Below, one piece after another: positions 3,066 to 22,319 of a stretch of DNA of 22,319 bases. Made by a program: the position numbers and the translations under genes. Within the stretch, counting starts at the first letter, position 1; every line of letters begins with the position of its first letter. Under the pieces are notes generated by a model. It was not told where the DNA came from, did not search any database, and worked only from the letters and a program-made list of their open reading frames with translations. This stretch comes from Bolinopsis microptera. Its lineage: Eukaryota; Ctenophora; Tentaculata; Lobata; Bolinopsidae. The DNA lies in NCBI RefSeq assembly GCF_026151205.1, contig NC_087078.1, positions 11,730,175-11,752,493 on the forward strand, in the 5' to 3' direction.

Positions 3066-3490
3066 GCATTTTTATCAGTTTTGTTGATATTATGTATGAA
3101 CCGCCCCCCCCCCCCCCCTATATTACGTAATCAAGGTTTGACCCCCCCCCCCCCGTAATCAAGACCCAACCCCCCTCCTATATTACGTAATCAAGATTAG
3201 ACACCCAAAAAAAAGATTAGACACCCCCCCCCCCCCCCCCCCCATTTTTGAGTTAAATTTTGATGTAGAGATACACTTACTAAACGAAAATTGGTTTAAA
3301 AAACGAAAATTTTGATTACATAATTATTATTAACGAAAATTTCCAATTGGTATTTCGAAAATCGGTAAAAATTAAAATTTTTATCAACGACCAAACCCCC
3401 CCCCCCCCCCCCCCCCCCCCGAAATCAACCGTAAGCATTTGAACCCCCCCCCCCCTCGGCTGATTACGTAATATGTGAACGACCCCTTAT
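3066..3490. repeat. Poly-C MITE-like repeat cluster, copy a
   Basis: Long C homopolymers (10-25 bases) alternate with words such as TATTACGTAATCAAG, AGATTAGACACCC and AACCGTAAGCATTTG. The right end is TGATTACGTAATATGTGAAC followed by GACCCCTTA, which is the exact inverse of the start of copy b at 4266. It is non-coding. The termini and the TTA beside them suggest a non-autonomous DNA transposon family, but no transposase is present, so the superfamily is a guess. The C-run lengths are also the least trustworthy bases in the window. Confidence 0.55.
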
Positions 3491-4265
3491 ATGTGTTAAA
3501 CAATCCATGGCCTGTCTAAAATTCGATAATGAACTTCATATTAGTTACTCATATCTCTTGTACAGACTGTTTTACAAGGATATTGACAGATGATACTCAC
3601 ATTAGGCATTCATTATTGCATCTAAATTATTTCACTTGCATTAGGTTTAGAAATTTATTCTCTGGTTAACAGATTTCAAATGTTTAATTAATTGGTAGTA
3701 AGACAGTAAGGTATATAAGAAGTTATTTAATTTTGCTTGGGCTATTATATTGACTATTAAGGTTTATATTAATGATGATATGGAATTTGAATTTTATATA
3801 AATTTACACCATGAGGTTGGGGCATTTTGCATAGTAAATATGGTTACTACTCCTATATATCATATTATTTGATTGGTATTCGATTTCTGATTATTTCCCT
3901 AGGAATATGATTATTATATCTCAATTTGGCTTTAGGTAGGGTGCCCCGCTAAAAGAACTGGATTCTTCCAGGAAGCATCCCGTGCACAGAGCTTGGTCTA
4001 CATATATATTAAATTATTAACCATTCATTCTGTATGCGCACGAAAATTTATTTCAATCAATCATATTATTAGTGGTGCTGCGTGCTGATAAATATTTTGG
4101 GAATCAATCCACCCAATCATGGCGATAACATATGTTTGTGCTCGGCCGGTTTTAGGTTTGAGTTTTTGCTCCAAAAGTGGTAAATCGGGTGCTAGTAAAG
4201 CTCCGACATGTCTTGGGTTGTACTGGACCTAACAAGTTTATTATCGGATGTCTACTTATATTTAT
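3491..4265. other. AT-rich intergenic DNA between two repeat copies
   Basis: No open frame of note, no splice-site chain and no RNA gene are visible here. The stretch lies between the right end of poly-C copy a and the left end of copy b. Confidence 0.4.
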
Positions 4266-4425
4266 TAGGGGTCGTTCACATATTACGTAATCAATATTTT
4301 ACAATTTTTACCCCCCTCCCCCCCTTCCGTAATCAACCGTAATCAAGACCCAACCCCCCCCCCCCCCTCCTGACAGCAATATTACGTAATCATGGCCTGA
4401 CCCCCCCCCCCCCCCCCCCCCCCTT
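4266..4425. repeat. Poly-C MITE-like repeat cluster, copy b
   Basis: The copy begins TTAGGGGTCGTTCACATATT and continues into ACGTAATCA, then alternates C runs with CGTAATCAACCGTAATCAAG and ATTACGTAATCATGG. Its beginning is the reverse complement of the end of copy a, so both ends of the family are represented nearby in facing orientation. Confidence 0.55.
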
Positions 4426-5730
4426 GACTTTTTTCCTAGAAAACACTTTTCTCTACGTTTCATGCTACCCTGATCATGCTATCATGATGTTGGTAATGGT
4501 AGCTTCAATCTTGCCTCCACGTTCATGTCGCAGTCTGATTGCAAGGATACTCCCAGTGATGAGGACGTAAGTTTGATCAAACTCTCAACCAGCACCATTA
4601 ACAAGATCTACAGACTAACCCTCAACTTCAAAGACAGTCTGAAAGCAGATAATTAGTTTCCTTTCTCAGTTTTCTATTTTTGTATTCTTTCTTCTTTTTT
4701 CCTCTCCCCCCTTTTTTCCTCCCAGCTTTGAATCTGTGATGGATGTGATGGAAGGCTTGCGTTTACTTTTATCCCTACATGGGCTCCCGGCTGTGCGTCC
4801 ATGTAGGAGCTGTGGGGCCTTCCGAGTGATAGGGTTACAGTGACTGCTAGTAGAGAAAATATGAAGGTTCCACCAGTAGACATAAGTATCGAAAGCAGGG
4901 CATTGGCTCGACCTCCGAGGCGGGGTATCCGTGAGGACCCTGGTCGTAATCAGCTCTGCACTGTTTCAGTGTATCCTGATGCCTGAAATCTCGGACACTG
5001 CCTACGTACGGGGTAGACAGCCACGGATGATTTTGTCTGTGAGCTTTTCATCACTTCCTGACATGAGCCAGACCTCAGCTGGATCCTTCCTTTTCCTTTT
5101 TCTTTACTTCCCGTTCAGTCTACCTCTTCATCATCAGTTTGAGTTGCTTCGCATTGCATTCGAACTTTTCCTCCTCAGTTCACCACGGCACCTCTTTTGG
5201 ATGCCTCCTACCGGGCAACACTAGCTTTCAGACACTGGCTAACTTACCGCGCACGGTTTAGTTTGTGTGTCTTTTCTGTGGCCGTGTATTCCGTTTTATG
5301 CCACCCTCTCTGCCGTTTTCGCGCTTGCGCTCACCCACTCCTCAGTGGGCTGTTCATTTGACAGAGTTACTGGCTGGCACTCCCATCATCTTCTCACTCA
5401 CCATCACTGCCCAATCAAATTTATGCAATCAAAATCACTATACACCCATAATCATATGATCAAAACACAAAGCTTTGAAATATACTTTTTTCTGTTTGAG
5501 ATTTGAATAACGTTACTGTAATGTTCCAAATTATATTTTAAATGTTCAAAAAAAAAAATGATGAGCCGAAATCATTGTTATGATATCCGGCCAAGCACCT
5601 TCTAAACTACTTACTATTATAGCCGGATATTCGATCAACTTCTAAATTTTATCATTATCAGAGTGAAATTGAGTGGAATTTGAATTAAAATATCGTCAAA
5701 TTGTTATTATTCTAGAGGGAAAAAAATAAA
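4426..5730. other. Intergenic region with weak, unassigned short frames
   Basis: There are scattered open frames of 60-97 codons on both strands, none with a recognisable domain, signal or splice chain. A short plus-strand frame ending at about 4654 contains FMSQSDCKDTPSDEDV and LIKLSTSTINKIYRL and looks protein-like, and the GC-richer block at about 4740-5350 has several broken protein-like frames. These may be remains of a mobile element ORF, but I cannot assign one. Confidence 0.3.
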
Positions 5731-5850
5731 ATTTTGATTACGTAATCAACGACCGAACCCCCCCCCCCCCCCCCCCGTAATCAACCGTAAGCATTTGTAA
5801 ACCCCCCCTTCCCCCCTCGGCTGCTTACGTGATATGTGAACGAGCCCTTA
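5731..5850. repeat. Poly-C MITE-like repeat, copy c
   Basis: The unit GATTACGTAATCAACGACC, a C run, CGTAATCAACCGTAAGCATT, another C run, then TCGGCTGCTTACGTGATATG and TGAACGAGCCCTTA closely matches the right half of copy a (3380-3490). It is therefore a third member of the same family, with a slightly diverged terminal sequence. Confidence 0.6.
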
Positions 5851-6911: not shown

Positions 6912-6960
6912 ATGATCAACACACAAGTCCTTCTTGTCATTGCTACATGGATTTGCACAG
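6912..6960 (+). CDS. Exon 1: signal peptide
   Basis: The exon encodes MINTQVLLVIATWICTG, with a hydrophobic core LLVIATWI, and ends one base into a codon at a GTAATA donor. Joined to exon 2 the sequence continues VLSEVSVFLPYG, so cleavage is likely near residues 17-20. This ATG is preferred because the preceding bases (GATA before ATG) give no upstream in-frame alternative with a signal, and the signal peptide begins directly at it. Confidence 0.75.
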
Positions 6961-9900
6961 GTAATACTGCACATAGTAACTGAATATATTAGCATTCATT
7001 CATTTAAAATAAAGGGAGAATGATGCTATTTATTCATATTGGGAAATATGAAACAAATATTTTCCTTATTATATTTATCATCTTCATTCGCATTTTTGAA
7101 TTGTGAACTGTTTCGTCATATTGTAATAATAAAACATTTCAGTTTTGTCAGAGGTTTCTGTTTTCTTACCTTACGGTAATCATGTTGGAATTGGACTATC
7201 CTTCCCTATGGTTATAACTGTGAAGCCTGATAATTGTGTCAGCTGTCCTTTGATAATTGAAGTGGTTCCACCCTACTTTACCAACTCACAGATAAACCAA
7301 CCTATGCTCAACCTCGAGAATTGCATAGTTAGGTAAGATTCTGTTCTTACAAGTTTTATTATCGTGATTAAAGTTATAGATATTGAGCAACAGGATTTTT
7401 ATTGAAGAATACACACAATCTTAACAGAAATTATATTGATTTTCAGGTATATTGGATCAAATGTAGTTAGTAAGTCTATCACTGCTGGTGACACAGTTGA
7501 ATCAAATAACTTCATCAATATCATTGATGGTGTTCTGTCCATCAACTTTGGAAATGTCGATGTGCCAGCAGGTTTGATTTATATAAATTTACATAATCCT
7601 CAGATTTGTCCAAGAGACTGATTTACCATATTAATATAACAGAATAGTCGACCGATTGATTGTGGCAGATTGTGGAATGGATCTGTATATAATATGTATT
7701 GATATGAAAAGAATTGAATCTTTCAACTGTTATTTCAGGAAGCACTGACTCCGAGATAATAGTTTCGTTAGATCTCAGAGTGAGGAATATGTACACCATA
7801 CAAAACTTCAATGTTCTCACTCTGCAAATCAAGGAGCAGCTTGGTGAGAGATTTTAACTTACCGTTTAGTTTTTGTATTTTTAATGGAATACGTCAGACC
7901 TATTTTTTTACTAAATACTTTTCAAATTTTACAGAGTACAGCAATCAGCAATAAATGAATATAAAATAGAATTGTTCAAAATATTAAATAGTCAACTTCA
8001 ACCATGATAGTCAACTTCAACCAATGATATAACTTCCTTGTTTCAGCTTGTTTAATGTCGTCTTATTTCAGATAATCAGTTCAATTTCGTGAAGGAATCT
8101 CTGCAAGTTGTGAAACCCGAACTTCCTCGTATCCAGGTAATAAGAATTACTCTCCTATAGACTTGCATTTAATTTACTTTGATTAGTACTTATGATAAGC
8201 TCCTGCTAGTACTATTGCCTTATGTCTTATGAGTTATGAGTGGTCCCCTTTTCAGTTTATACATTGCTTTTATTTAAAACCTGTCTCCAGACATTTGAAC
8301 CTGAAGATTCGAGAATGTTGTACCAGAGCAAAGACGAGCCAGCTATAATCTTCAGCGTCAAACTACCAGTGACATCAGCCACACCAGTCTACAACATCTC
8401 TATAACCTGCAGTGTTAGGGATGCTTCTCCTAACTTCCGAACTGCAACTACCAACCCCAACAGTGTCAGCATCGTTGTGGTAACTATTACATGATTTAAA
8501 TTGAACTTCAAACCAACAATTTTATAGCTTTCGCTTTTCACCATTTAGAAAATCATTTTTTCACATTACAACCTTGATTTCGAGATTTGCCTTGCCCAAT
8601 TTTACTGTAAACAATTTTTCGTATCACGATAATAAGTATCATTTCCAGCTCGTCCAGCTAACCGAACCCCTCCCAGGTGGAACAAGACGGAGTGGAACTG
8701 ATACACTTCCAGCTAACCCAACCCCTCCCAGGTGGAACAAGACGGAGTGGAACTGATACACTTCCAGGCAGACGAGTTAAAACCAGGTCACGTGATAGTG
8801 GGCAGGTTTGGGGTGTATCTCCACAACACCCTTCCTCCAGATAAACTCAACATGGACATGAGTGTGGTGTCCTACAGTGCTCCCATTCAGAATAACGGCA
8901 GACAGCTGGATACTGTTCAGAGTAAATCATCATATTTAAATGGAGTTTGTCTGAGTTAAAAAAAGATATCAAAAACTATGTACATTGGCTTAATGTATAA
9001 CGGATTAATGTATAATTACCCGGAATAATACTTTCTTTAGTTTCAACAACAAATTATGAAATAACTTTAAATGAATAAGTTTGTGTAAGACATGTGTCTA
9101 CTCCCAAAACCTTCAGGTAATCTGATCGTACCAGTGAAGCTAAAGTACCCAGTGCTAACACTGGTAGATTACCCTGAAGCTAGTTTGGTTGGGGTCCCCT
9201 TCAATGTCACCCTGTCAGTGGAGCTTCCACCTCTTCTGGTTAACTATAAGGTAAGCAGTTTATCAATTATCAGGGGTAACACTAACATGATGCTTTTGCA
9301 GGTTGAATGCCTTGCTCCTCTTCTTTCTTAAATGTTATTTTTGTTCGGTAAACTAAAATCACGTTTCATACAGTTGAACTGTGCTTGAAACCCAAACCTA
9401 GATAGATATTGCATGCTAGTTGCTATGTCGAGTTAAATCACCATTCACCAACTGCAATAAAATTCTAGGTCGAGTTTTCTGCTGTTTTCGGAGTGAGTTC
9501 CTCGTTGACGTTTATCAGTGTGACAGAAGACAACAAAGCTATCGAAGGGAGTAAAACAATCACGGATAATATGGTTATCATAGAGGGGTAAGAAAAGCAA
9601 GAATATACTTTTTGTCCTTCAATAACAAAATTTAACTGCATTTAACGATTTGCCATTAATTTACTATAACATGATCAACTAGGCCCCCGATCTTACTTGC
9701 TCATCATCGATGAGATCATTCATGAGAAAGTTGTTAAGAAATTTTTTTAATAAAATGGATCACGTACGTAAATGTAAAATTACTCTGCAGTGAAGGGGTA
9801 TTAGAAGAAGAAACAAGAGTTTTGTACACTATCACTGCACGTGTTAAACCTTCGTTACAAACTCGGAATAGCATCTTGATGATTGCCGGTAATAACCACT

Positions 9901-12900
9901 GTTCATTTCCTGTTCATTTCCTGTTCATTTCCTGTTCATTTCCTGTTCATGTCCTGTTCATTTCATGTTCATTTACTGTTCATTTACTGTTCATTTCATG
10001 TTTATTTCCCTTTCATTTCCTGTTCATTTCCTGTTCATTTCCCTTTCATTTCCTGTTCATTTCCCTTTCATTTCCTGTCCATTTCATGTTCATTTCCTGT
10101 TCATTTTATGTTCACTTCATGTTCATTTCCTGTTTTTTGTAAACAAATTTAGTATATTTTTCATGCCACTAAGGTATCTTGATTTGCCCTCAAAGTTCAA
10201 ATGCATCAACAGCAGACGTTATTACCTACAATTGCTCGAAACTATAAATCCAAGATAGATTATACAGGGTGGCCCACAAGTGACTACCCACACGCAACCT
10301 CTTAATAACTCACGTAATTCGTCTCCAAATTGCACAAAAATTTCAGAGATTATAGATATGGGTCAAACTTAGATTTCCTGAAAGTTTCGTAAGCCACGCC
10401 CAATTACAGTGGGCGTGGCGTGACACTCCCTCTTTTTCACTATTGTCTTCATAAAATGAGAACGCTTTAAGCTAAGAACTCCAAATTTTTTGCACACATT
10501 TGGCTTGATAATTTAAAACCTTTCCCAAAGTTTCAAGTTCTTTGTTCAAAATTTGGCTGAGTTATGACCATTTCAAAATTCATCGGAAATGTGATCCGAG
10601 CACTCAGTCAGTGATCTCTGCACTCAATCAGTGATCTCCTCACCCAATCTGATCAAGAGTAAGGCGTTAGCTGTATTAATGAGGTTCATTAGGCTTTACC
10701 AAACATACTGAGGAGATGACGACCTGATCATGATTGATTGGATACCGATAATGACTTTGCTAGACAGGAAAACACCAAATTCTTCGTAAAAGTAAGGTCC
10801 TAGGATTCCACGAGAACTGATAGCGCACCAGATCGTGACCTTTTCAGAAAAATCAGGAATCACGGTCTAAAAGTTGGTGTTTCTTTGTGATCCGATAGGC
10901 CCGGTTAGAAAGATCTTGCTTTAGGATTCGTTGAAGGGATGTTCTGCTGAGGTCTAAGGCAGGAGCTCGTTTTCGGGTGCCAATTTTAGGTGTATCCATC
11001 ACGTCACAAACAACCATGGTGATGTTTTCTTCAGTCCTCGCAGTTCGTCTTCTGCCGACTCTTCGCCGATCGTTCGCAGAAAAAGTGAACTTGATCTTGT
11101 GATGCATATCAAAGCAGCTTTTCCGGCAAGGGGATGGTCGGTTGAATTTCATTTGAAATTGTCGTTTAAGCTGAGGACAGAACTCCCCATTCTCTTTGTT
11201 CAGGTAGACAAACAATCGTTGTTCCGCAGTATAGGGAGGATAGTGAACCATTTTCGATAATTCAATGGATAGTTCATTCCTTTTTATCGATTGTAAGGAA
11301 CGAACCTGTGACTAGCAGGGCTAACAAGCCCTGCAACCAATCAAGCGGTGCATGTGAGCCAAACAGGCCATTAACCAAGTGCAGAGATCACTGACTGAGT
11401 GCTCGGATCACGTTTCCGATGAATTTTGAAATGGTCATAACTCAGCCAAATTTTGAACATTGAACTTGAAACTTTGGGAAGGGTTTTAAATTATCAAGCA
11501 AAATGTGTGCAAAAAAATTGGAGTTCTTAGCTTAAAGCGTTCTCATTTTATGAAGACAATAGTGAAAAAGAGGGAGTGTCACGCCACGCCCACTGTAATT
11601 GGGCGTGGCTTACGAAACTTTCAGGAAATCTAAGTTTGACCCATATCTATAATCTCTGAAATTTTGGTGCAATTTGAAGACGAATTACGTGAGTTATTAA
11701 AAGGTTGCGTGTGGGTAGTCACTTTTGGGCCACCCTGTATTCAACACAGCCACAACTAACAGATAACCTCATCTTCCAGGTCTAACGTACAAAACAGACA
11801 GCAAGACGAAATCACTAGAAAAACTAGAAAAACAGATGGTAGTACAGCACCCGGCACTACAAGTGGAGATAACCTCAAGTGAAGCAGAGTACGTGACCCT
11901 GGGTGAGGCTGTGTCCTACCTCCTTACTGTCACACACCTGCCTGGCTCAGTAGCTGACGCCCATCAGATACTGCTCAATGTGGAGTTGTCTGTTCCGGGG
12001 ATTTTGAACTGTGAGGAGCAGAGTTTGTCTGTTTCTCAGCTTTCTGGAAGGAAGGTTCAGGTGAGTTATTGGTGGGCCCTCGTGTGAGTACACGTGTGAG
12101 TACACGTGTGAGCCCTCGTGTGATTACACGTGTGAGTACACGTGTGAGCCCACGTGTGAGCCCACGTGTGAGTACACGTGTGAGCCCACGTGTGAGCCCA
12201 CGTGTGAGTACACGTGTGAGTACACGTGTGAGCCCACGTGTGAGGCCACGTGTGAGGCCACGTGTGAGCACACATGTGAGTACACGTGTGAATACACGTG
12301 TGAGCCCACGTATGAGCCCACGTGTGAGCCCACGTGTGAGTACACGTGTGAGTACACGTGTGAGTACACGTGTGAGCACACATGTGAGTACACGTGTGAG
12401 TACACGTGTGAGCCCTCGTGTGAGTACACTTGTGAGCCCACGTGTGAGTACACGTGTGAGTACACGTGTGAGTACACGTGTGAGTACATATTGTGTGAGC
12501 CCTAGTGTGAGACTACTAAAGGTAGTTGCAATTATTCAGAAATATCTATACCCTCACAAAATGCTATCCAACAAGCTCATAAGATTAAATTCATTCTGGA
12601 TCAACTTATCAGAAACAGATTTTATTTGTATTTCCCTCACAGATATCAGAAGATCACCTGGGAGTTGGAGAGGTTCTAAAAATACAGATATCAGCTACAC
12701 CCACCTCAGATGACATGCTTCAAAACAAGATGAAACTTCTTGTCACTTACTCCTATCAAAGTTGTCCAGCCTCTTTCTGTCAAACGTAATTTCATATTCG
12801 AATCTTTCTTTTACCTAGCTTATAATAGTATTTTCAAGGAGATTTTCTGTACGGAATTGCTGGCAAATAATGTTTAAACGCCATTTCATAACCGTTCAAT

Positions 12901-15900
12901 ATTGCCAGGTATGGTTTGGTATCATCGAAGGAAAGCATTGGCTTGAAGATCCACTCAAGTGACATTGGTACCGAGTTCCTGCCGTCCTGTGCCGCTGTAA
13001 AACACCCCTTCTCCCTGAAGATAATCCCCGTAAGGGATGCTGACATCTGTGAATACAACGCCACAATTACCCTCCCCAGCACTGAGATAATATTTCAGTC
13101 TGTTGTGACATCTTCCCAATTGCCAATATCTGTTAAAACAGAAGGTCAGAAGGTCAGAATTCACTTCGATTCACCCAACCAAAAAGTCGAAAATTTGGAA
13201 GTTGTCTTTGATTCTGAGGTTGAAAACCCAGGGAGGATTCATACATTTGTACTGAGATCGTCTTTCAAGATGTGTGATTCTGACTTGATCATGGAAGAAA
13301 CCACCAACCCTTCTATCGAGATAGCAGATGCAGATGTTGATATCACTATCACAGCTTCTACACCGACTGTTCAATGCAAAACAGAGTTCACCTACAAAAT
13401 ATCTCTTCAATTTGACAAGCCCATCCCTGTATACGGCCTGTCAGTCAGGGTTTTCAATGATTTCGTGAAATTTACCACCAGTGACAGTAGAATCACCCAA
13501 AATAACGACGGATTCACTCTTCTTGTGCCTCAACTGGACTCAGACACAACGTTCAATGTTTCTGGAACGGCTGAAGGGGTAACACTATCCACCGATACAA
13601 CTGCCTCTTGGAGTTATCAATACTTTTCTGCTCGTGAAAATGGAAAGGTCTACTCAGGCTCATTCTCTCTACCCGAAACTAAGATAGACCAGCCTACGTT
13701 CACCTCATTCATTGAGAACAAAGTTGCCGGGAAGATCACTATTGGCGAAGAGTTCGTTTTTGGGATAGAGGTGATCACATCGGAGATGCTAACAGACTTT
13801 GTCATCAGATTACAACTGCCCGAGTGTAACGGTGATAAGTTATTTGAGGTTGTTGAAGTGCCGAGTCCGGTGGTAGGGGACGATGTTTTCCTAACAACCA
13901 TTCCCAATCATCAAACCAGTAACCGGCTGTTGGAGATCTGGCTGCAGACTGACAACAGGGCTAATTCCTTCACGGATAAAGGAGATCTGTTGACTCAGAG
14001 AGTTACGTTTAGGTCGCTTTTCTCAATGTTACAATGTCAGAATACTAAATTTCCTCTGACTTACACTGTAGACTTTGGACTGGCTCCTAATTTTGAACGT
14101 TTCGATGATACTAAATATCTTAATCTCTCTGGTGAGTAATCATTGATGTTGTAAATTTATATTATTCATAGCAAATGTCGCAATTCTTTTCTCGAGATAT
14201 AATGAAATTAGAATTATAAATAATCACAAATAAATAAGCAGATTTGCTATAACAATCTGCCTTCAGGACCTGATCTGAAGACAGAATTCAGCATCATTCC
14301 ATCGTTGGAGAGGTCACGTGACGCAAAGGATCTAACACTGTTCGACCTCAAACTTTGGCACACTGCCCAATCATCTGCCCCTGCTTATAACATTACTGTG
14401 GAACTTGTAAGTTTCTCAGATATTTTGTATAAACATTGTGGTATTACCTTTGACTCGTATGTGACTTTGAAATTTTTGCTAAAAGTTAAATTAAGACAAT
14501 CGACTATAATGTCTGAACGAATCGTTATAATCACACTGGACATTTTCTGTTCTCAAACTGTTACTTAAACAGGTGTGTGAAGAGTTGAACGTGCTGAGTT
14601 TCAATATAATGACGCCTCCTCCTCTTGGTTTGAAGCAGGGCGCTGTCTCTGTTAGGTTCGCAAGGCTCTCTGTTGGAGAGACCTTCACTGCCATCGTTAG
14701 GTTAGTTTGTTAATAATTTACTGGTTTTACAGCGTTAGGTTAGTTTGTTTATAATTTACTGGTTTTACATCATTAGGTTAGTTTGTTTATAATTTACTGG
14801 TTTTACATCGTTAGGTTAGTTTGTTTATAATTTACTGGTTTTTGTGTTGATTTAGGTTGTACATATTGTATTATCTGAGTTAGAATAGTGAGAAAACTGA
14901 ACAAATTTAGTTGGGCATCTAATATTTATATTATTGCCATCTTTCAAATCAGACGACCTGAATACACCGCATGATACTTTGTGATAGAATAAAAATTCCC
15001 TCTAAAACGACCCGGGAATGTTAACCCAATGTTAATAAATTTGCCTCTTCAGGGCGGAATTGAAGCAAGATGTACTGGTGTCACGTGCTGTGACATGTGG
15101 AGGCAAGGTGGAGTACATGTCCAGTGATAATGAGCCCAGCCTCAACTACATTTACACAACCACATTCGAGTCTGATGAGATTCAGTTGGCTAAACCTGCT
15201 GTGTCTCTGTGGGATGTGGGCAGTCAGGGAAATATTTACGATTACAGGTAAGATAAGATATAAGGTGGATGCCACTTATATTATCAACCTCTTTTTAAAC
15301 AATTTCTCCCATTTTTGCAAGTAACGTTAAGTGATCTTATGGAGCCATTGATAAATTTTTATCAAGGTGAGTACTGACTTACTGAGTAGTTTGTTGGTCA
15401 CCTATCTCTTGTAAATGTACCTCTCTTAAAATGAACCGTTTACTCATTAATATGCTGATTATATATGGCATTAATAACTATCATAACTGTTGAATATGCA
15501 ATATATTGGTATGTAATGTGGCATTATTATTAATGTTGAATAAGCTACAAATTGTTATATTGTGGCATTATCATAAATGTGGCATTTTCATTAATGTGGT
15601 ATATTTCATATTATATAAATATCTCCGGGATTTCGACGCGGGATCATATTATCACTCAACCCGGCCCGCTGTTAGATAAACATCTCAAGGTGATATCATC
15701 CCGCCCCGCAAATTCGTATAAACCCGGCCCGCTTTTTAGTCGTAACTGATGTTTATCATTCAATTCTCCGACTTACAATAATCAATGATACTGCTGATTA
15801 GAACTCGATAATAGTAGAACAGTTAGACGCGCGATCACGTGGGCGCGTCACGTGCGTACCACGTGCCACCAATAGCATACGCCGAGTCTATACCACGTGA

Positions 15901-18900
15901 CACGAAAGCGCACCACGTGATATGAAACATCGTAACCGTCCACTTCTTTTAAACGCAAATTCCTGGGAACGTTGCCAAAGCAGCTAATTCTTGGAATTTC
16001 TCCAACGCGTGGCGTGAGAAGTTGGCGACTAGCCAGCTACCCTTGTCCGTGCCCTAAAAATAGTATTGTTTTGCTTGCTCTCCTTCCAGCTCTTGTTCCT
16101 GCTAACGTTCAAGCTATTGCTCCACTATGACAGATCGGTTTGACATTCAGATTGATGAACTGCTTTCCAATCGTGTTCCGGACAGTACAGTTAGAGTCAA
16201 CAACTGGGCTCTAAACAAATTTAATTCTTGGCTTCAGTCATCCAGATTTGCTCGTGACTTCAATGACTTTGACCAAATTCCTGTTGAACGACTCAACTAC
16301 ATTTTAGAGTGCTTTCTTGTTTCTGTTGGATTTGACTTGAAGATGAAGACTATGTATTCTGTCTTTACCGCTTTAAACCGAAGATTGAGGGATTGGGACG
16401 AAGATTTGGACCTTTTCACAACGAAACGGTTTGCTCATTTCCGTAATGTTCTCGATGGATACTGTAAAACAAAACAATCTGAGGAGGATACTACAGTGAA
16501 AAAAGCAGACATCATCACAGAATCGGATGAGAAGCTACTATGGAGAAAAGCTTTCGGTGTAGAGACAGGAAACAAACTGCTCTTCACTCTCATTTATCTA
16601 ATGACCAAAACTTTCGCTATAAGAGGTGGAGATGAACTTTATCAGATGAGTAGCGACTCCATCACGATACAAACAACCAGTAACTCCCACAAGATTACCT
16701 ACACAGAAAGGAGGAGTAAAAACAAGCAACCAGGACTCCAAAACATCAACAAGCAGAAAAAAATAGTCACACATTACGACCCTTTAGGAAAAACCAACAC
16801 CCTGGCTTACTGTCTTCTGCTTTATCTCCGCTACTCTCACCCAGATGTCACATCAAAGAACTCAACCCTCCCGCTCTTCAATCACCCTCACAAATCTCCT
16901 ATTATCCTTGGTGGACATCCAATCTGGTAAGTTACTGTGCTGTTAAGTCATGAATTTCAATGTTGAATAATAAATTTTTCCCAAGTATTAATATTAAATT
17001 TCTTAAAACTTATCGTGCTCCTAATTTTGAACGTTTCGATGATACTAAATATCTTAATCTCTCTGGTGAGTAATCATTGATGTTGTAAATTTATATTATT
17101 CATAGCAAATGTCGCAATTCTTTTCTCGAGATATAATGAAATTAGAATTATAAATAATCACAAATAAATAAGCAGATTTGCTATAACAATCTGCCTTCAG
17201 GACCTGATCTGAAGACAGAATTCAGCATCATTCCATCGTTGGAGAGGTCACGTGACGCAAAGGATCTAACACTGTTCGACCTCAAACTTTGGCACACTGC
17301 CCAATCATCTGCCCCTGCTTATAACATTACTGTGGAACTTGTAAGTTTCTCAGATATTTTGTATAAACATTGTGGTATTACCTTTGACTCGTATGTGACT
17401 TTGACATTTTTGCTAAAAGTTAAATTAAGACAATCGACTATAATGTCTGAACGAATCGTTATAATCACACTGGACATTTTCTGTTCTCAAACTGTTACTT
17501 AAACAGGTGTGTGAAGAGTTGAACGTGCTGAGTTTCAATATAATGACGCCTCCTCCTCTTGGTTTGAAGCAGGGCGCTGTCTCTGTTAGGTTCGCAAGGC
17601 TCTCTGTTGGAGAGACCTTCGCTGCCATCGTTAGGTTAGTTTGTTAATAATTTACTGGTTTTACATCATTAGGTTAGTTTGTTTATAATTTACTGGTTTT
17701 ACATCGTTAGGTTAGTTTGTTTATAATTTACTGGTTTTTGTGTTGATTTAGGTTGTACATATTGTATTATCTGAGTTAGAATAGTGAGAAAACTGAACAA
17801 ATTTAGTTGGGCATCTAATATTTATATATTGCCATCTTTCAAATCAGACGACCTGAATACACCGCATGATACTTTGTGATAGAATAAATATTCCCTCTAA
17901 AACGACCCGGGAATGTTAACCCAATGTTAATAAATTTGCCTCTTCAGGGCGGAATTGAAGCAAGATGTACTGGTGTCACGTGCTGTGACATGTGGAGGCA
18001 AGGTGGAGTACATGTCCAGTGATAATGAGCCCAGCCTCAACTACATTTACACAACCACATTCGAGTCTGATGAGATTCAGTTGGCTAAACCTGCTGTGTC
18101 TCTGTGGGATGTGGGCAGTCAGGGAAATATTTACGAGTACAGGTAAGATAAGATATAAGGTGGATGCCACTTATATTATCAACCTCTTTTTAAACAATTT
18201 CTCCCATTTTTGCAAGTAACGTTAAGTGATCTTATGGAGCCATTGATAAATTTTTATCAAGGTGAGTACTGACTTACTGAGTAGTTTGTTGGTCACCTAT
18301 CTCTTGTAAATGTACCTCTCTTAAAATGAACCGTTTATTCATTAATATGCTGATTATATATGGCATTAATAACTATCATAACTGTTGAATATGCAATATA
18401 TTGGTATGTAATGTGGCATTATTATTAATGTTGAATAAGCTACAAATTGTTATATTGTGGCATTATCATAAATGTGGCATTTTCATTAATGTGGTATATT
18501 TCATGTTATATAATTGGTATTTGGTATTTTCATTAATGTGGTAATACCACATTGGTATATTCTGCATAGTGATATTTATGTGGTATTTTCAAAGGAGTGG
18601 TACATGCAACATATTGGTTTGTGGTAGTTTTGTAAATTGTAAATTGAAATTCTTGTTGTTTCCAAATCGCACAATTTACTTGAGATGACAAGGCACAATC
18701 TGCTATAGGTAATGACTTAAGAATTTGACAGTTTTATAATGCTTCAATAGGAAATTTAGACAGGAAAAACAATAGAATTAATGATTAGAAGCAAATAAGT
18801 AAATCCAAACATACGAATCATGTTGTAAAATAATTCAATTTTTAATTTAAAATGTTCAATAATGGAAGAGCTTAGCATCACATAATCAATAATTTCAGTA

Positions 18901-21900
18901 CAGGTCCTTCCAGTCACAGTCGTTTAGTCATCCTCTAGGAGATGCAAAACCAGACAGCAAGATGGTTTTCTGACCAAAGACATGTACATGACCATATCAA
19001 TCAGGTTCTGATCCTCATTTCGATATCTCAGCATGTCGCTCCAAAGATCTCCAACTGAAGCATCAAGGGTATCACTGCACATAAGTTGCTCAATATTGTC
19101 GATAGTGCTGGCCATGTCAAACTGCCTTTTCGAGATTCTATCCAAATACCTTGTGGTGTGTCTTTTTCTTGTAGCTAGATGCATTGGACATCTGTCATCA
19201 CAAATGTTTGATCTTTCGATGATATCAAAAACTTGTATTTTAATATCACGTCTGATGATGTATTCGAGAATCATGCACTCAAAATTTTCATTACCGCGTT
19301 GATATCGATGAGAGCAGAACAACGAAAAGATGGTATCCAGAATTTTTTTGGAAACATCTTCGCAACATACCATTAACCGCATGGAATGAAGGAGATTGGT
19401 GGAAATACATTTACGAATTTCATTCTTATCGTTCTCTTTCTTCCTTTGAAACCAGTCTTCATACGCTTTGACGTTCATGATATCTAATATTTTGGTATGG
19501 TCGTTTCTTTTGCTGCACATTTTCTCTGTCACGATCCTGAAAAGCTGATACAAAATTTAGGAAAATTATAAAAATCGCTTTTGGTTCCCCAGTTCATTCA
19601 ATTTTGGAACATCCACGGTAGCATTTCTGCTGGAAAGTAACAGTGTAAATTATCAGCAGTTTGCACTGTACCTGGTTGATGACAAAGTAGTCTTCTTCTT
19701 CGCTGTGAATGGTGATTCCCCAGTCCTGATTTCCCGAGCAAAGATACATCTTGACCATTTTTGATGCAAATGAAAGGTCCACAGTCTTGTCTTTTCTATC
19801 AGCATATCTGTAATGGGACTTTGTATATGTCTACAGATTGTCGCCGATTATGGTTTTCCTGCTGAGCCAATTTATTGCTTTTCTTATTTTCAAGCAAATC
19901 ACTGAACTGTAGAATAGTATTGATTGATAAATAGTACGATTTTAAATCACTTACTTGATTGATGTTATTACTGTGAACCCAGAGAAAAACAAAATCACAA
20001 ATACTAATTTAAAGTTAGACATCAAATGTTTTGTTGATCAGAAAGTTAGGTATGTAAGGACTATGTAGGGACAATGCAGCTGAAAGCAGGGAGGCGAATA
20101 AAACAAAGTTAGGCTAATGGTATGTGGTGCACTGGTCCATTGGTACCCAGATAATACAAATATCATTAAACTGAAGAGCTAACGGGTAATTATCCAGCAC
20201 ACCTGGTATTCAGGTTAGTTGCTGGAAAGAATCAGCTGTTGAAAGTTTAAAATAGATTTCAAGGCTGAAACAATGTAAGAATCGAAAGGATGGTCTAATA
20301 AATAATAGTCTAAGTCTATATTAAGAGGTATTAAAACTCGGGCAGTGTCTAGATAGCCCGACCCCTGTTCGCGAACAGTTGTTCGCCGAACAGGTGTTCG
20401 TGTTACCAGATCATATGACTGCTTAATTTTTAAAAAACCCCTAATTCGCTTTCTGATTCCTGACAATGTATTTTGTCGAGAGTATCCTAAATCTACAGTT
20501 GAAAGAGGTAAGCTGACACATTGTTTTTTCAGAGTGGAAGTGGAAGTACCAGAAGGAAAGCTCTCATCACTGATAATAACCCTGAATGTGGGAATGGGTA
20601 TCTTAATAAAGGAGTGTCAGATTGATCATCTCTCCCTGACTTCCACTCATCAAAACGCTGTAATTATAAGTAACGCCGCTGCTGAAGTTAACTTGGGGGA
20701 AGTCTATAATAGACCTGATAATTTGTGAGTTTCTTGTTCCTATGATTTCTAACTTCTAAAAGATTACTTGATTTTCGTTGAAACTTAATTGGACATTTCT
20801 TTTGTAAACAAAATAGTATTTCTCATGCATCGTAGAATGTCACCGCATTATTTTTACGCCCTCAGAAAAACCGAGAAGGATAAAGTTTCCCTAAAGATAA
20901 AGTTAGAAAAAAGCCCATTTCCATTCGCTGACCTCAGCCTTGTATACACCACCCTGGACGGTGAAAGAACTAAAACTTTTGCTGTTTCCTGGAAGGATGA
21001 GTGCAATTTGCTGGTTAGTGCTAACCATCCGTCAATTCCCGGCAGCCTTTGATCCACTTTCTCAAGTGAAAAACACAACTCTATTTTAAACTCCTTTTGT
21101 AAAAAGATTACAATTCTCTGTAAATATCGTCTCTGATTATTTGATCACATTTAGTCGGCTCGTTCAGTTCCATATCAGTGATGATCTAGCCCCGTTCCAC
21201 CCTCAGTCCCATCAAACAGCACTGCAATTTCTATATCTCTTCCTTTTATCACAGCACTGTACTTGTTACTGTGCTTTAAAACCTGTTGCACAATAAGATA
21301 TAGAAATGCAGCTGACCGAAAAAAGAGAATATCAGCAAGCAAATTCACAAGCAAGTAGAGTGTAACAGGTTTAAAATAAGCGCCGGCTGTGTAGTTAAAT
21401 GGTGTTTTTACTGATCGTACATCACTCATAATGTAGCATGTGTCATTGTACATCTTTTTATCGGAAGTTTAACAAGGGAAATTGTGCATGATTTTGATCC
21501 GTGACGGTAAGGGAAAAGTATTTCTATTGATTCATAGAAATTGAATTATTGAGAATTCTAGATCAAAAAATTTTAACAATAAAAGGTCAGCGAATAAACA
21601 TTATGCAACAAACGAGTTTGTTATCTAAAGTGAAAACCACAAATGCCACGAAACTCAATTTTCATTCCACTAAGCACAACAATAAAAACTATATATTTTC
21701 AAAAAGAGAGAAAGGAACCCTTAAAAATAAAATCTCACCCAAACTCACACTCTTCAGTTGAATCTGGTTAGAAGAGACGAGACGGAGTTTGTGGAAGGAG
21801 GAGACGAGATCAGGTACGATGTGGTGGTTTCACACGATATCAGATCTCAAGTTAACTGTGTTAACGGCAGAATATTCCTTCTTCTCGACTACTGTAAGTT

Positions 21901-22319
21901 GATTCTGGACCAATGTTTTCCTCTTTGCATGTGCAGTTTGCATTAATTTTATAGATTTAAAAAAAGGTGTTCGGTCCTCTCGAAAATGTCAAGATTTAGT
22001 TATTTATCGGGGTTATCGAAACATTTGCTTGAATCATAAATTTATGTCATAAGTTAAATTCGGTTCAGGTGACATCCAGATGCCAGAACAATTGGAAATC
22101 AGAAGTAAAAAGGGCATTCGTAAGATGGTTTATATCGAGAAAAGCGAGGAATCTGCAATATTTGCATTGGACTCTATCGAATTAGGTATAACTTATAAGA
22201 AATCGGTTTACAAATTTACAGATTGTCAGCTTTCACTGTTTACTATAAACTTATTTCATGATCATCATCGTTGATTATATCGAATAATTCTCCTCAGGAG
22301 ACGAATACACAGTTCCGAT
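6912..22319 (+). CDS. Large secreted/surface protein with DUF11-like beta modules (21 exons, 3' end outside window)
   Basis: Exons joined by GT-AG introns with matching phase: 6912-6960, 7143-7332, 7447-7571, 7739-7843, 8072-8136, 8291-8479, 8732-8921, 9117-9250, 9469-9587, 9791-9888, 11780-12060, 12643-12785, 12909-14131, 14267-14406, 14573-14700, 15053-15247, 20533-20724, 20866-21013, 21758-21893, 22069-22185, 22298-end. This gives 3,989 coding bases, about 1,329 residues, without a stop. The protein starts with a signal peptide and then repeats a pattern of alternating hydrophobic beta strands: a strand pair around (F/Y)xxxIxL...(V/A)YN(I/A)(S/T)(I/V) followed by a segment with GxxVxYxLxV. 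This resembles DUF11-type extracellular repeats, by inspection only. Sequons such as YNIS, FNVT, YNAT, FNVS, YNIT and LNLS support an extracellular location. Exon boundaries were chosen by hand from splice consensus and phase; the continuity over 21 exons is the main support. The function is not known. It could be an adhesion or matrix protein, or a membrane protein whose anchor lies beyond the edge. Confidence 0.8.
7143..8479 (+). CDS. Exons 2-6: first modules
   Basis: The five exons 7143-7332, 7447-7571, 7739-7843, 8072-8136 and 8291-8479 encode about residues 17-241. The first module has paired cysteines (PDNCVSCPLIIEV) and a later module carries PVYNISITCSV. Acceptors are TTTCAG or CTCCAG and donors are GTAAGA, GTTTGA, GTGAGA, GTAATA and GTAACT. 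The GTTTGA donor of exon 3 is weak but phase 1 on both sides agrees with it. Confidence 0.75.
8658..8767 (+). repeat. 55-bp tandem duplication of the exon 7 acceptor
   Basis: A 55-bp unit starting CTAACC(G/C)AACCCCTCCCAG and ending TGATACACTTCCAG is present twice (8658-8712 and 8713-8767) with one base difference. The unit contains a branch-point-like CTAAC, a pyrimidine-rich tract, a CAG acceptor and the first 36 coding bases of exon 7. Because 55 is not a multiple of three, only the second acceptor keeps the frame. Confidence 0.9.
8732..8921 (+). CDS. Exon 7 (starts in second copy of a 55-bp repeat)
   Basis: From 8732 the frame reads VEQDGVELIHFQADELKPG and continues to a GTAAAT donor at 8922; both phases agree with exons 6 and 8. 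The identical CAG acceptor in the first repeat copy (after position 8676) would start the same peptide but shift frame when it enters the second copy. Use of the upstream AG at 8648 hits a stop in the second repeat copy. The second copy is therefore the productive site. Confidence 0.7.
9117..9888 (+). CDS. Exons 8-10
   Basis: The exons 9117-9250, 9469-9587 and 9791-9888 encode about residues 305-421. Exon 8 contains GVPFNVTLSVELPPL, a module signature plus a sequon. Exon 9 continues directly with VEFSAVFGVSSSLTF. Exon 10 ends with NSILMIA and one base, and its GTAATA donor opens the very long intron 10 (9889-11779). Phases are 1, 0, 2 and 1 across these joins. Confidence 0.75.
9899..10136 (+). 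repeat. 11-bp microsatellite (TGTTCATTTCC) in intron 10
   Basis: About 21 copies of an 11-bp unit TGTTCATTTCC, with variants such as CTTTCATTTCC and TGTTCATTTAC, begin ten bases after the exon 10 donor. The array is pyrimidine-rich on this strand. The open frames that it creates (rich in Phe, Ser, Cys, His) are artefacts of the repeat. Confidence 0.95.
10265..11737 (-). mobile_element. Deleted Tc1/mariner-like transposon with 360-bp terminal inverted repeats
   Basis: The element runs from CAGGGTGGCCCACAAG at 10265 to its inverse ending CCACCCTG at 11737 and is flanked by TA on each side (10263-10264 and 11738-11739), the usual mariner target duplication. The inverted repeats (10265-10624 and 11378-11737) match almost base for base, including GTGACTACCCACACGC and CCACGCCCAATTACAGTGGG. 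The 753-bp interior carries transposase remnants on the minus strand. At 1,473 bp the element could have held a transposase, but the catalytic region is deleted, so it can be mobile only in trans. It sits in intron 10 of the large gene. Confidence 0.9.
10690..11251 (-). pseudogene. Mariner-like transposase remnant
   Basis: The frame 11251-10853 gives 132 residues. Residues 7-35 (TAEQRLFVYLNKENGEF) resemble the DUF4817-type N-terminal helix-turn-helix of invertebrate mariner transposases. RRRVGRRRTARTEENI is the basic linker, and TSLQRILKQDL ends the second DNA-binding helix-turn-helix. It stops after LLDRDS. A different frame from about 10857 then reads DFSEKVTIWCAISSRGILGP, which is the piece just after the first catalytic Asp region in such enzymes. 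The DDE catalytic residues are absent. An internal deletion plus a frameshift inactivated it. Confidence 0.75.
11780..12060 (+). CDS. Exon 11: DUF11-like module
   Basis: The exon follows the acceptor ATCTTCCAG and encodes 93 complete codons plus the two bases that finish the last codon of exon 10. It carries the clearest module signature, YVTLGEAVSYLLTVTHLPG followed by QILLNVELSVPGIL, similar to the GdxVtYtitvtN ... nvxvxDxlP pattern of DUF11 repeats. It ends with VQ at a CAG/GTGAGT donor, immediately next to the 12-bp minisatellite. Confidence 0.8.
12077..12512 (+). repeat. 12-bp minisatellite in intron 11
   Basis: About 34 units of a 12-bp repeat, consensus GTGTGAGTACAC, differ mainly at three positions (TAC, CCC, GCC, CAC). 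Most junctions form CACGTG. The array begins 17 bases after the true exon 11 donor (GTGAGT at 12061). The repeated RVST, THTC and SHVY peptides in its open frames are artefacts. In the host gene frame each unit contains a TGA stop. Confidence 0.95.
12643..12785 (+). CDS. Exon 12
   Basis: The exon begins after TTTCCCTCACAG with ISEDHLGVGEVLKIQISATP and ends with a cysteine pair, YQSCPASFCQ, at a GTAATT donor. It starts at phase 0 and ends at phase 2, in agreement with exons 11 and 13. Confidence 0.75.
12909..14131 (+). CDS. Exon 13: large exon with several beta modules
   Basis: This 1,223-bp exon encodes about 408 residues (563-970) and is by far the longest in the gene, so several modules are encoded without introns. 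Recurrent pieces are SCAAVKHPFSLKIIPV with EYNATITLP, TVQCKTEFTYKISLQF with PVYGLSVRVF, and KITIGEEFVFGIEVIT with FVIRLQLPEC. Cysteines recur at the start of modules. Sequons include YNAT and FNVS. It ends with KYLNLSG at a GTGAGT donor. The last 49 bases are copied at the start of the second duplicon (17017). Confidence 0.85.
14267..15247 (+). CDS. Exons 14-16 (first copy)
   Basis: The exons 14267-14406, 14573-14700 and 15053-15247 encode about residues 971-1124. They carry a module with APAYNITVEL, then GLKQGAVSVRFARLSVGETF, then RAVTCGGKVEYMSS and a segment ending NIYDYR. Entry phase is 1 (from exon 13) and exit phase is 2, to be completed by exon 17 at 20533. The donor of exon 15 is the unusual GTTAGT. 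Confidence 0.8.
14689..14846 (+). repeat. 38-bp VNTR spanning the exon 15 donor (4 units)
   Basis: Four units of about 38 bp, beginning CGTTAGGTTAGTTTGTTTAT, run from the last bases of exon 15 into intron 15. The first unit includes the real splice donor TTAG/GTTAGT, so each later unit carries a copy of it. The second duplicon has three units. Confidence 0.9.
15836..15919. promoter_or_regulatory. Cluster of five CACGTG palindromes with CCAAT
   Basis: CACGTG occurs at 15836, 15849, 15860, 15894 and 15914, and CCAAT at 15869. CACGTG is the canonical E-box for bHLH-zip factors such as USF, MITF/TFE and Myc. The cluster lies about 210-290 bp upstream of the DUF3504 ORF start, so it is a plausible promoter element for that ORF. 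The sites are observed; their use is an inference. Confidence 0.55.
16127..16930 (+). CDS. DUF3504 (Crypton-type tyrosine recombinase-like) protein, C-terminally truncated
   Basis: The ORF of 267 codons starts with MTDRFDIQIDELL. Residues 20-125 match the N-terminal SAM-like helical domain of DUF3504 proteins (VERLNYILECFLVSV and NVLDGYCKTKQ); residues 135-260 match the first part of the catalytic domain, with TFAIRGGDEL supplying the catalytic Arg (R166). YTERRSKNKQPG and a P-x-LF-like TLPLFNHP follow. The family includes Crypton transposases and domesticated relatives such as QRICH1, ZMYM2-4 and KIAA1958. The later His-x-x-Arg and nucleophilic Tyr are missing, so recombination activity is not expected from this piece. 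The ORF ends at TGG-TAA, but CTG/GTAAGT overlaps the stop and looks like a splice donor, so the original gene probably continued in another exon that is not present here. Confidence 0.75.
   Translation: MTDRFDIQIDELLSNRVPDSTVRVNNWALNKFNSWLQSSRFARDFNDFDQIPVERLNYILECFLVSVGFDLKMKTMYSVFTALNRRLRDWDEDLDLFTTKRFAHFRNVLDGYCKTKQSEEDTTVKKADIITESDEKLLWRKAFGVETGNKLLFTLIYLMTKTFAIRGGDELYQMSSDSITIQTTSNSHKITYTERRSKNKQPGLQNINKQKKIVTHYDPLGKTNTLAYCLLLYLRYSHPDVTSKNSTLPLFNHPHKSPIILGGHPIW
17201..18142 (+). CDS. Exons 14'-16' (second copy, alternative to exons 14-16)
   Basis: The exons 17201-17340, 17507-17634 and 17948-18142 keep the same lengths, frames and splice sites as the first copy. Only two amino acids differ: Thr to Ala in GETF(T/A)AIVR and Asp to Glu in NIY(D/E)YR. 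Both are conservative, so selection or recency has kept the copy intact. Joining exon 16 to 14' gives AGG ACC TGA, an immediate stop, because exon 16 ends at phase 2 and exon 14' needs phase 1. Either set alone fits between exon 13 and exon 17. It may be a genuine alternative cassette or an unused copy. Confidence 0.65.
17623..17742 (+). repeat. 38-bp VNTR spanning the exon 15' donor (3 units)
   Basis: This is the same repeat as at 14689, with three units instead of four. The length difference shows that the array changes copy number on the timescale of the duplication. Confidence 0.9.
18514..18842. other. Intronic AT-rich DNA with TTCATTAATGTGGTA repeats
   Basis: Near 18480-18600, variants of TTTTCATTAATGTGGTA and TGTGGTATT recur several times; they extend a run of GTGGCATTA words already present in both duplicons (15517-15605 and 18413-18500). 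No gene is visible on either strand. Confidence 0.5.
18843..18848 (-). terminator. Possible polyadenylation signal of the nested gene
   Basis: The minus strand reads ATTAAA about 75 bases after the stop codon at 18924. ATTAAA is the commonest variant of the AATAAA signal. In AT-rich DNA such hexamers arise by chance, so support is positional only. Confidence 0.35.
18924..20022 (-). CDS. Nested antisense gene: secreted 12-cysteine protein, unknown family
   Basis: Three exons on the minus strand join in phase: 20022-19955, 19807-19672 and 19544-18924, giving 274 residues and a stop. Exon 1 encodes MSNFKLVFVILFFSGFTVIT, a clear signal peptide, then a GTAAGT donor in phase 2. Exon 2 follows CATTACAG and begins YADRKDKTVDLSFASKMVKM, ending FVINQ at GTACAG. 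Exon 3 follows TTTTGTATCAG with LFRIVTEKMCSKRNDH. The mature protein is alpha-rich and polar, with about 12 cysteines (including CC pairs at VCCED and PSCCL), consistent with disulphides. A stretch DRCPMHLATRKRH is faintly ankyrin-like, but not enough to assign. No family is recognised. The whole gene lies in the intron between exons 16' and 17 of the plus-strand gene, so simultaneous transcription would be convergent. An extra short exon at about 19900 was considered but breaks the frame. Confidence 0.7.
20023..20532. other. Upstream region of the nested gene (intronic on the other strand)
   Basis: This stretch should hold the promoter of the minus-strand gene. No TATA box is convincing. The only notable structure is the palindrome pair at 20365-20395. 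An 83-codon minus-strand open frame that overlaps it has no signal or domain and is not called. Confidence 0.4.
20365..20395. promoter_or_regulatory. Paired TGTTCG palindromes
   Basis: CTGTTCGCGAACAG (20365-20378) is a perfect 14-bp palindrome. It is followed at once by TTGTTCGCCGAACAGGTG, an imperfect version of the same dyad, and another GTTCG. Two adjacent dyads of this kind resemble a binding site for a dimeric factor. They lie about 340 bp upstream of the nested gene's start codon. Regulatory use is an inference. Confidence 0.35.
20533..21013 (+). CDS. Exons 17-18
   Basis: Exon 17 (20533-20724) begins VEVEVPEGKLSSLIITLNVG and ends at GTGAGT with phase 2. Exon 18 (20866-21013) begins KTEKDKVSLKIKLEKSPF and ends SWKDECNLL at a GTTAGT donor in phase 0, the same unusual donor as exon 15. 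If that donor were not used the frame would stop at TGA (21050), 12 codons later, giving a possible short C-terminus; the phase match with exon 19 makes splicing the better reading. Confidence 0.65.
21014..21757. other. Intron 18
   Basis: This 744-bp intron shows no gene. A short word (AGATATAGAAAT and its inverse ATTTCTATATCT) occurs near 21228 and 21296, forming a weak foldback of about 12 bp stems. Confidence 0.45.
21758..22319 (+). CDS. Exons 19-21 (open at right edge)
   Basis: Exon 19 (21758-21893) reads LNLVRRDETEFVEGGDEIRY and then DVVVSHD, again the GxxIxYxVxVxH module signature. Exon 20 (22069-22185) carries MPEQLEIRSKKGIRKMVYIE. Exon 21 starts at 22298 with DEYTVP after CTCCTCAG and is cut by the window edge. 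The GTATAA donor of exon 20 is weak, but phase 1 on both sides and the rebuilt Gly codon support it. Confidence 0.65.

Follow-up and report, generated by a model that had tools for sequence, protein, structure and literature searches.

A duplicated exon block in a Bolinopsis microptera gene

The DNA analyzed here, referred to below as the window, is the 22,319-nucleotide stretch C7:11730175-11752493 of the genome assembly of the ctenophore Bolinopsis microptera. Its forward strand, on which the parts of the duplicated structure also lie, carries a gene that we modeled splice by splice by eye, with translation and a Pfam scan, as exons 1 to 21 (positions 6912 to 22319). A block containing three exons of this gene is present twice, and the two copies are separated by part of a transposon. 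Every junction in the gene model is GT-AG, and the long open frames in the downstream locus (L012) suggest that coding extends past the window end. The host protein gave no Pfam match above the cut-off, the only matches being to DUF6689 and DUF11, both subthreshold.

Alignment of the two direct copies places them at 14083 to 15613 and 17017 to 18508, with a start-to-start offset of 2934 bp. Copy 1 begins at 14083 within exon 13 (12909 to 14131) and comprises the last 49 nucleotides of that exon, exons 14 (14267 to 14406), 15 (14573 to 14700) and 16 (15053 to 15247), and the following intron up to the point of transposon insertion. Copy 2 likewise starts inside exon 13, with its last 49 nucleotides (17017 to 17065), and continues through exons 14′ (17201 to 17340), 15′ (17507 to 17634) and 16′ (17948 to 18142) into the intron. 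Over the 1492 aligned bases the copies differ by six substitutions, one 38-bp indel, which is a single unit of a local tandem repeat, and one 1-bp indel. A sequence-only reading of this DNA had reported exons 14 to 16 with their introns twice over ∼1.5 kb, with about eight substitutions and two amino acid changes. The alignment bears out the repeat and the total of eight differences, of which only six are substitutions, the other two being the indels. Two of the six substitutions are coding and each alters an amino acid (T1056A and D1123E), as that reading had it. On this comparison, chance is excluded as the source of a 1.5-kb near-identity, and six substitutions are too few to reveal any selection. 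A search of the assembly (264.65 Mb in 232 contigs, with 97.5% of the bases in C1 to C13) found the cassette at two places, both inside the window, and a 258-residue query around the cassette gave eight matches, again all in the window, with no paralogue of the gene; in neither search does a miss elsewhere prove absence.

The cassette of exons 14 to 16 is 463 nucleotides long (1 modulo 3), with an entry phase of 1 and an exit phase of 2. With one cassette the gene model is open for 1329 codons, up to the window end; with both it meets a stop at codon 1127, and with none a stop at codon 984. The stop at codon 1127 is created at the junction of exon 16 with exon 14′, which reads AGG ACC TGA. A join of exon 16 to exon 16′ is open, giving 1394 codons. 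Thus, the gene model confirms the phase logic of the sequence-only reading throughout: the entry and exit phases, the immediate stop, the in-frame linkage of exon 13 to exon 17 by either cassette alone, and the phase compatibility of exons 16 and 16′. Among the 64 possible combinations of the six exons, eight remain open as far as the window end: one each of exons 14, 15 and 16 is present in four of them, three lack any exon 16, and the remaining one has exon 16 followed by exon 16′. None of the eight uses the whole of both cassettes.

The transposon between the copies

The two copies do not abut directly but are spaced by ∼1.4 kb of transposon, which rules out a plain tandem duplication with nothing between them. 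Alignment to the full-length genomic copy L004 and to six further copies (L005 to L010) identified this spacer, at 15614 to 16996, as a truncated Crypton-type element corresponding to element positions 1 to 1380, with an intact 5′ end and a missing 3′ half. Its left boundary, ∼15614, is uncertain by a few bases and within that margin coincides with the 5′ end of the seven other copies. Up to position 1380 it differs from L004 by six substitutions. The 3′ end, present in seven of the seven other copies read, is missing from the window copy. The element contains an open reading frame of 267 residues (16127 to 16930) that matches DUF3504 (Pfam PF12012, E = 1.1e-11) and, by comparison with L004, represents the N-terminal part of a tyrosine recombinase; it has a splice donor after 16926, and the later exons are absent from the window copy.

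L004 is a 2.55-kb copy (L004:1500-4049, in the C1:13992636 region) that encodes a predicted recombinase of 394 residues, and its spliced protein matches PF12012 with E = 9.8e-13. Both this protein and the window open reading frame are therefore related to the DUF3504 tyrosine recombinases that define Cryptons. Candidates, picked out by eye in the L004 protein, for the catalytic R-H-R-Y residues of Cryptons are AIRGG, KSIR (with K at the H place), TGH and Y. Its C terminus, also judged by eye, is a strongly hydrophobic, membrane anchor-like tail. The 5′ end of L004 has a subterminal inverted match of ∼17/18 bases at a site 182 bp from the 3′ end, and no terminal repeats were noticed by eye at the ends of the seven copies, although repeats of a few bases could escape such inspection. 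Hairpins near the 3′ end had raised the possibility of a Helitron, an identity ruled out by the DUF3504 open reading frame and by the tyrosine recombinase exons of the full-length copy.

Many internally deleted copies accompany L004. The spacer query gave 186 first-look candidates, the window included, of which 40 were scored; all 40 match from the first spacer base (97 to 100% identity), and 37 of them stop between positions 632 and 810. A 260-bp query from the 3′ end gave 185 candidates, and the 40 scored are 95 to 100% identical. Among the 39 listed 5′-end matches besides the window, seven were read as complete copies, and the catalytic-exon region found a single match in the genome, in L004. 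Taken together, these matches suggest a recent burst of internally deleted Crypton copies whose source appears to be a single full-length element that has survived. Animal Cryptons (CryptonA and CryptonI), as described in parts of PMC3212892, are similar in their DUF3504 tyrosine recombinase open reading frame and in having internally deleted copies alongside full-length ones, here outnumbering the single full-length copy. The animal members are described there as having no terminal repeats, direct or inverted. Compared with the elements covered there, the window copy is missing its 3′ half and the exons that follow, and L004 has the subterminal inverted match and the hydrophobic tail. A literature search on Cryptons together with ctenophores found no title on a ctenophore genome.

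Between the transposon and copy 2 is a single breakpoint, occupied by 20 unmatched bases (16997 to 17016). A 25-mer covering most of these bases was found at no other place in the assembly at up to two mismatches, and no template for them was found in the continuing transposon or in nearby DNA, similarity to both being at chance level. At the other end of the element, copy 1 reads TTATATAA and then passes into the transposon at ATATCTCC, whereas copy 2 at the same point continues as TTATATAATTGG. Copy 1 thus carries the transposon and copy 2 a transposon-free, empty site (18500 to 18530). Neither the spacer transposon nor the empty site was part of the layout implied by the sequence-only reading, and it is these features that show how the structure was pieced together. 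Because copy 2 has an empty site, a simple duplication of a transposon-bearing chromosome is insufficient to explain the structure, unless copy 2 subsequently lost a complete transposon by clean excision, an event of which a tyrosine recombinase element might be capable. A join between a transposon-bearing and a transposon-free version of the locus would explain the empty site with one breakpoint.

Origin of the duplicated structure

From its sequence, the structure is best explained by two haplotypes of one single-copy locus that were joined where only one of them has the transposon inserted. Haplotype A would carry exon 13 and exons 14 to 16 followed, in the next intron, by a young Crypton-type transposon, and haplotype B the same exons without the transposon. 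The window would then track haplotype A into the transposon, to element position ∼1380, and, after the 20 unmatched bases, change over to haplotype B midway through exon 13. Such a switch would make exons 14 to 16 appear twice with allele-like differences. Consistent with this, the end of copy 1 coincides to within a few bases with the 5′ terminus of the transposon family, copy 2 passes through the empty site, the divergence is 6/1492, and the cassette was seen at no third place. We infer the allelic status of the two parts, and likewise any computational origin of their join, from this anatomy. That genome assembly made the join, producing a false exon gain, is our leading though tentative explanation, and we consider it slightly more likely than a rearrangement in the animal. 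The break falls in a repeat, copy 2 begins at an arbitrary place in exon 13, and double inclusion would wreck a gene that is otherwise open for 1329 codons. The copies also lie close together on one scaffold (C7) at allele-level divergence.

Parts of PMC9516828 document false exon gains as a recognized class of assembly error and report that long-read assemblies for which purge_haplotigs was used still retained false duplications. The Bolinopsis microptera genome, according to sections of PMC10232365, was assembled with wtdbg, with gap closing by TGS-GapCloser and haplotig purging by Purge Haplotigs, and has 97.23% of its sequence in 13 scaffolds. The window resembles the heterotype false duplications treated in PMC9516828 in that exons are repeated on one scaffold with allele-like differences and that the two versions differ structurally. 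Several points nevertheless weigh against an assembly origin. Gaps between the pairs are typical of the false duplications described in that source, and the window, with 0 N, has none between its copies. In addition, long reads should easily cross a 2.5-kb element. Finally, genuine end-joining also usually leaves a short unmatched insert.

We surveyed twenty 10-kb pieces, of which 18 lay at round-number positions and two beside the window, for direct repeats of at least 300 bp, at least 93% identity and an offset of at least 300 bp, excluding repeats wholly within minisatellite zones. Such a repeat was present in 5 of the 20 pieces, at 98% identity or more in three, and as a two-copy repeat longer than 1 kb in one. 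Kilobase-scale near-identical direct repeats are thus not rare in this genome, whatever their origin. One sampled piece (L025, 598 to 6494; C3:5000001-5010000) holds a second locus of similar anatomy, which favors an assembly join: its two 2.7-kb copies are 99.6% identical, and between them lie a CCCTGA repeat and, ahead of copy 2, a handful of unmatched bases. Just upstream of the window, a tandem array with a ∼703-bp unit and about 99.7% identity occupies L024:1-5460 (C7:11720000-11729999).

A genuine tandem duplication in the animal is also quite possible, if less so, and could have arisen by either of two routes. In an animal heterozygous for the transposon, a broken end within the element could have been linked to exon 13 on the other homologue by end-joining or template switching. 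Alternatively, the duplication could have taken place on the transposon-bearing chromosome, after which the complete element was cleanly excised from copy 2 and the truncated one remained trapped between the copies. A single breakpoint would account for the truncated transposon, the unmatched bases, the empty site and the allele-like differences, and the frequency of direct repeats in the survey fits a real event, as does the lack of Ns. Circular excision, as proposed for Cryptons in part of PMC3212892, would provide for the second route. The resulting allele would splice both cassettes, shift the frame and probably be null or weak. However, such a duplication would disrupt the long open gene model, the 20 bases have no template in nearby DNA, and an assembly join predicts the same anatomy. 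An order of events in which the duplication came first, the transposon then entered copy 1, and a deletion removed its 3′ half together with the original junction fits all of the boundaries. The divergence of the cassette (6/1492) moreover resembles the six substitutions by which the transposon, up to position 1380, differs from the full-length copy, which suggests that both are young. This order requires three events instead of two, and the original duplication junction has left no trace, making it an unlikely history.

A role for transposition itself in making the duplication appears very improbable. It would involve either one-ended integration with a kilobase-scale target duplication or reintegration, via homology, of a circle containing transposon and exons. 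The intact 5′ end and the composition of the spacer, which consists entirely of the transposon part and the 20 bases, are compatible with such events, and circles are the proposed Crypton intermediate in the portion of PMC3212892 considered here. The seven other copies read, however, have both ends, and none of these seven complete copies has a direct match of more than 28 bp between its flanks (about 1.5 kb on the left and 338 to 1269 bp on the right), leaving a kilobase-scale target duplication unsupported as a habit of the family within the flanks fetched. To our knowledge, the tyrosine recombinase reaction does not duplicate kilobases. A more specific version, in which a Crypton circle or one-ended intermediate consisting of the 5′ half plus the exons re-entered the transposon-free allele by homology and so created, in a single step, a frame-locked pair of three-exon cassettes, is the least probable of the histories considered here.

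Splicing of the two cassettes

The sequence-only reading had proposed mutually exclusive exon sets, with double inclusion removed as a nonsense transcript. The arrangement does consist of adjacent homologous exons of which both or neither break the frame, and the eight open combinations include none with both whole cassettes. Disruption of the frame by inclusion of both or neither is common, though not universal, among mutually exclusive exons. The sequence offers no positive support for this function. The intron sequence next to the splice sites is the same in both copies over 40 bases upstream of each acceptor and 15 downstream of each donor, and a single exonic base differs, six bases before the exon 16 donor; little therefore seems to distinguish the copies for the splicing machinery. 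None of the cis mechanisms of exclusive splicing was evident: exons 16 and 14′ are 1,953 nucleotides apart, which is not close spacing; all junctions are GT-AG, leaving no U2/U12 incompatibility; and comparison of the intervening intron with positions 14000 to 20600 found no perfect complementarity of at least 12 nucleotides that could represent competing RNA pairing, G-U and interrupted pairing being outside this search. The copies differ by just two amino acid changes and bear no sign of selection. The transposon between them, moreover, contributes a splice donor (after 16926), and the phase of this donor would likewise lead to the stop in exon 14′.

The closest known frame-enforced case is exons Ab and 3 of U2AF1, where, in the part of PMC5224494 on which we draw, inclusion of both or neither also creates stop codons. 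There, single exons alternate and the splice sites differ in strength and branch points. Here, by contrast, three exons are involved, the divergence is 0.4%, a transposon lies between the copies, and the splice-site neighborhoods, known from genomic sequence alone, are identical. We therefore consider working exclusive sets of the U2AF1 kind highly unlikely. If the allele exists, double inclusion and a nonsense transcript are to be expected from its sequence. In sum, we confirm the duplication and its phase logic and find no support for the proposed function; the evidence fits best the alternative that the sequence-only reading itself had allowed, a young neutral duplication or a haplotype artifact.

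Other repeats occur in and near the gene. A 55-bp tandem duplication, 98% identical, lies at the start of exon 7 (8653 to 8762) and includes its acceptor; of the two acceptors present, the one in the second copy (exon start 8732) is the only one with which the modeled gene stays open, so that this frame-breaking duplication seems to be bypassed through splice-site choice. At 10262 to 11740, intron 10 contains an element of 1.48 kb whose 363-bp inverted arms are 97% identical, beside an 11-bp minisatellite (about 9899 to 10141), and intron 11 is filled in large part by a 12-bp minisatellite. Upstream of the gene, at positions 3105 to 5808, a motif rich in C homopolymers, with TTACGTAATCA, recurs several times.

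If the structure is an assembly join, near-identical cassettes around a truncated transposon need to be screened for such joins before they are taken for alternative exons. Should it be real, it would be a fresh case in which a transposon-insertion difference seeded an exon duplication that knocks out its own allele, and it would provide a natural setting in which to ask whether a doubled cassette that breaks the frame can be rescued by splicing. Were the pair in fact made by the Crypton, exclusive splicing would be needed for gene function, and the locus may capture the birth of mutually exclusive exons.

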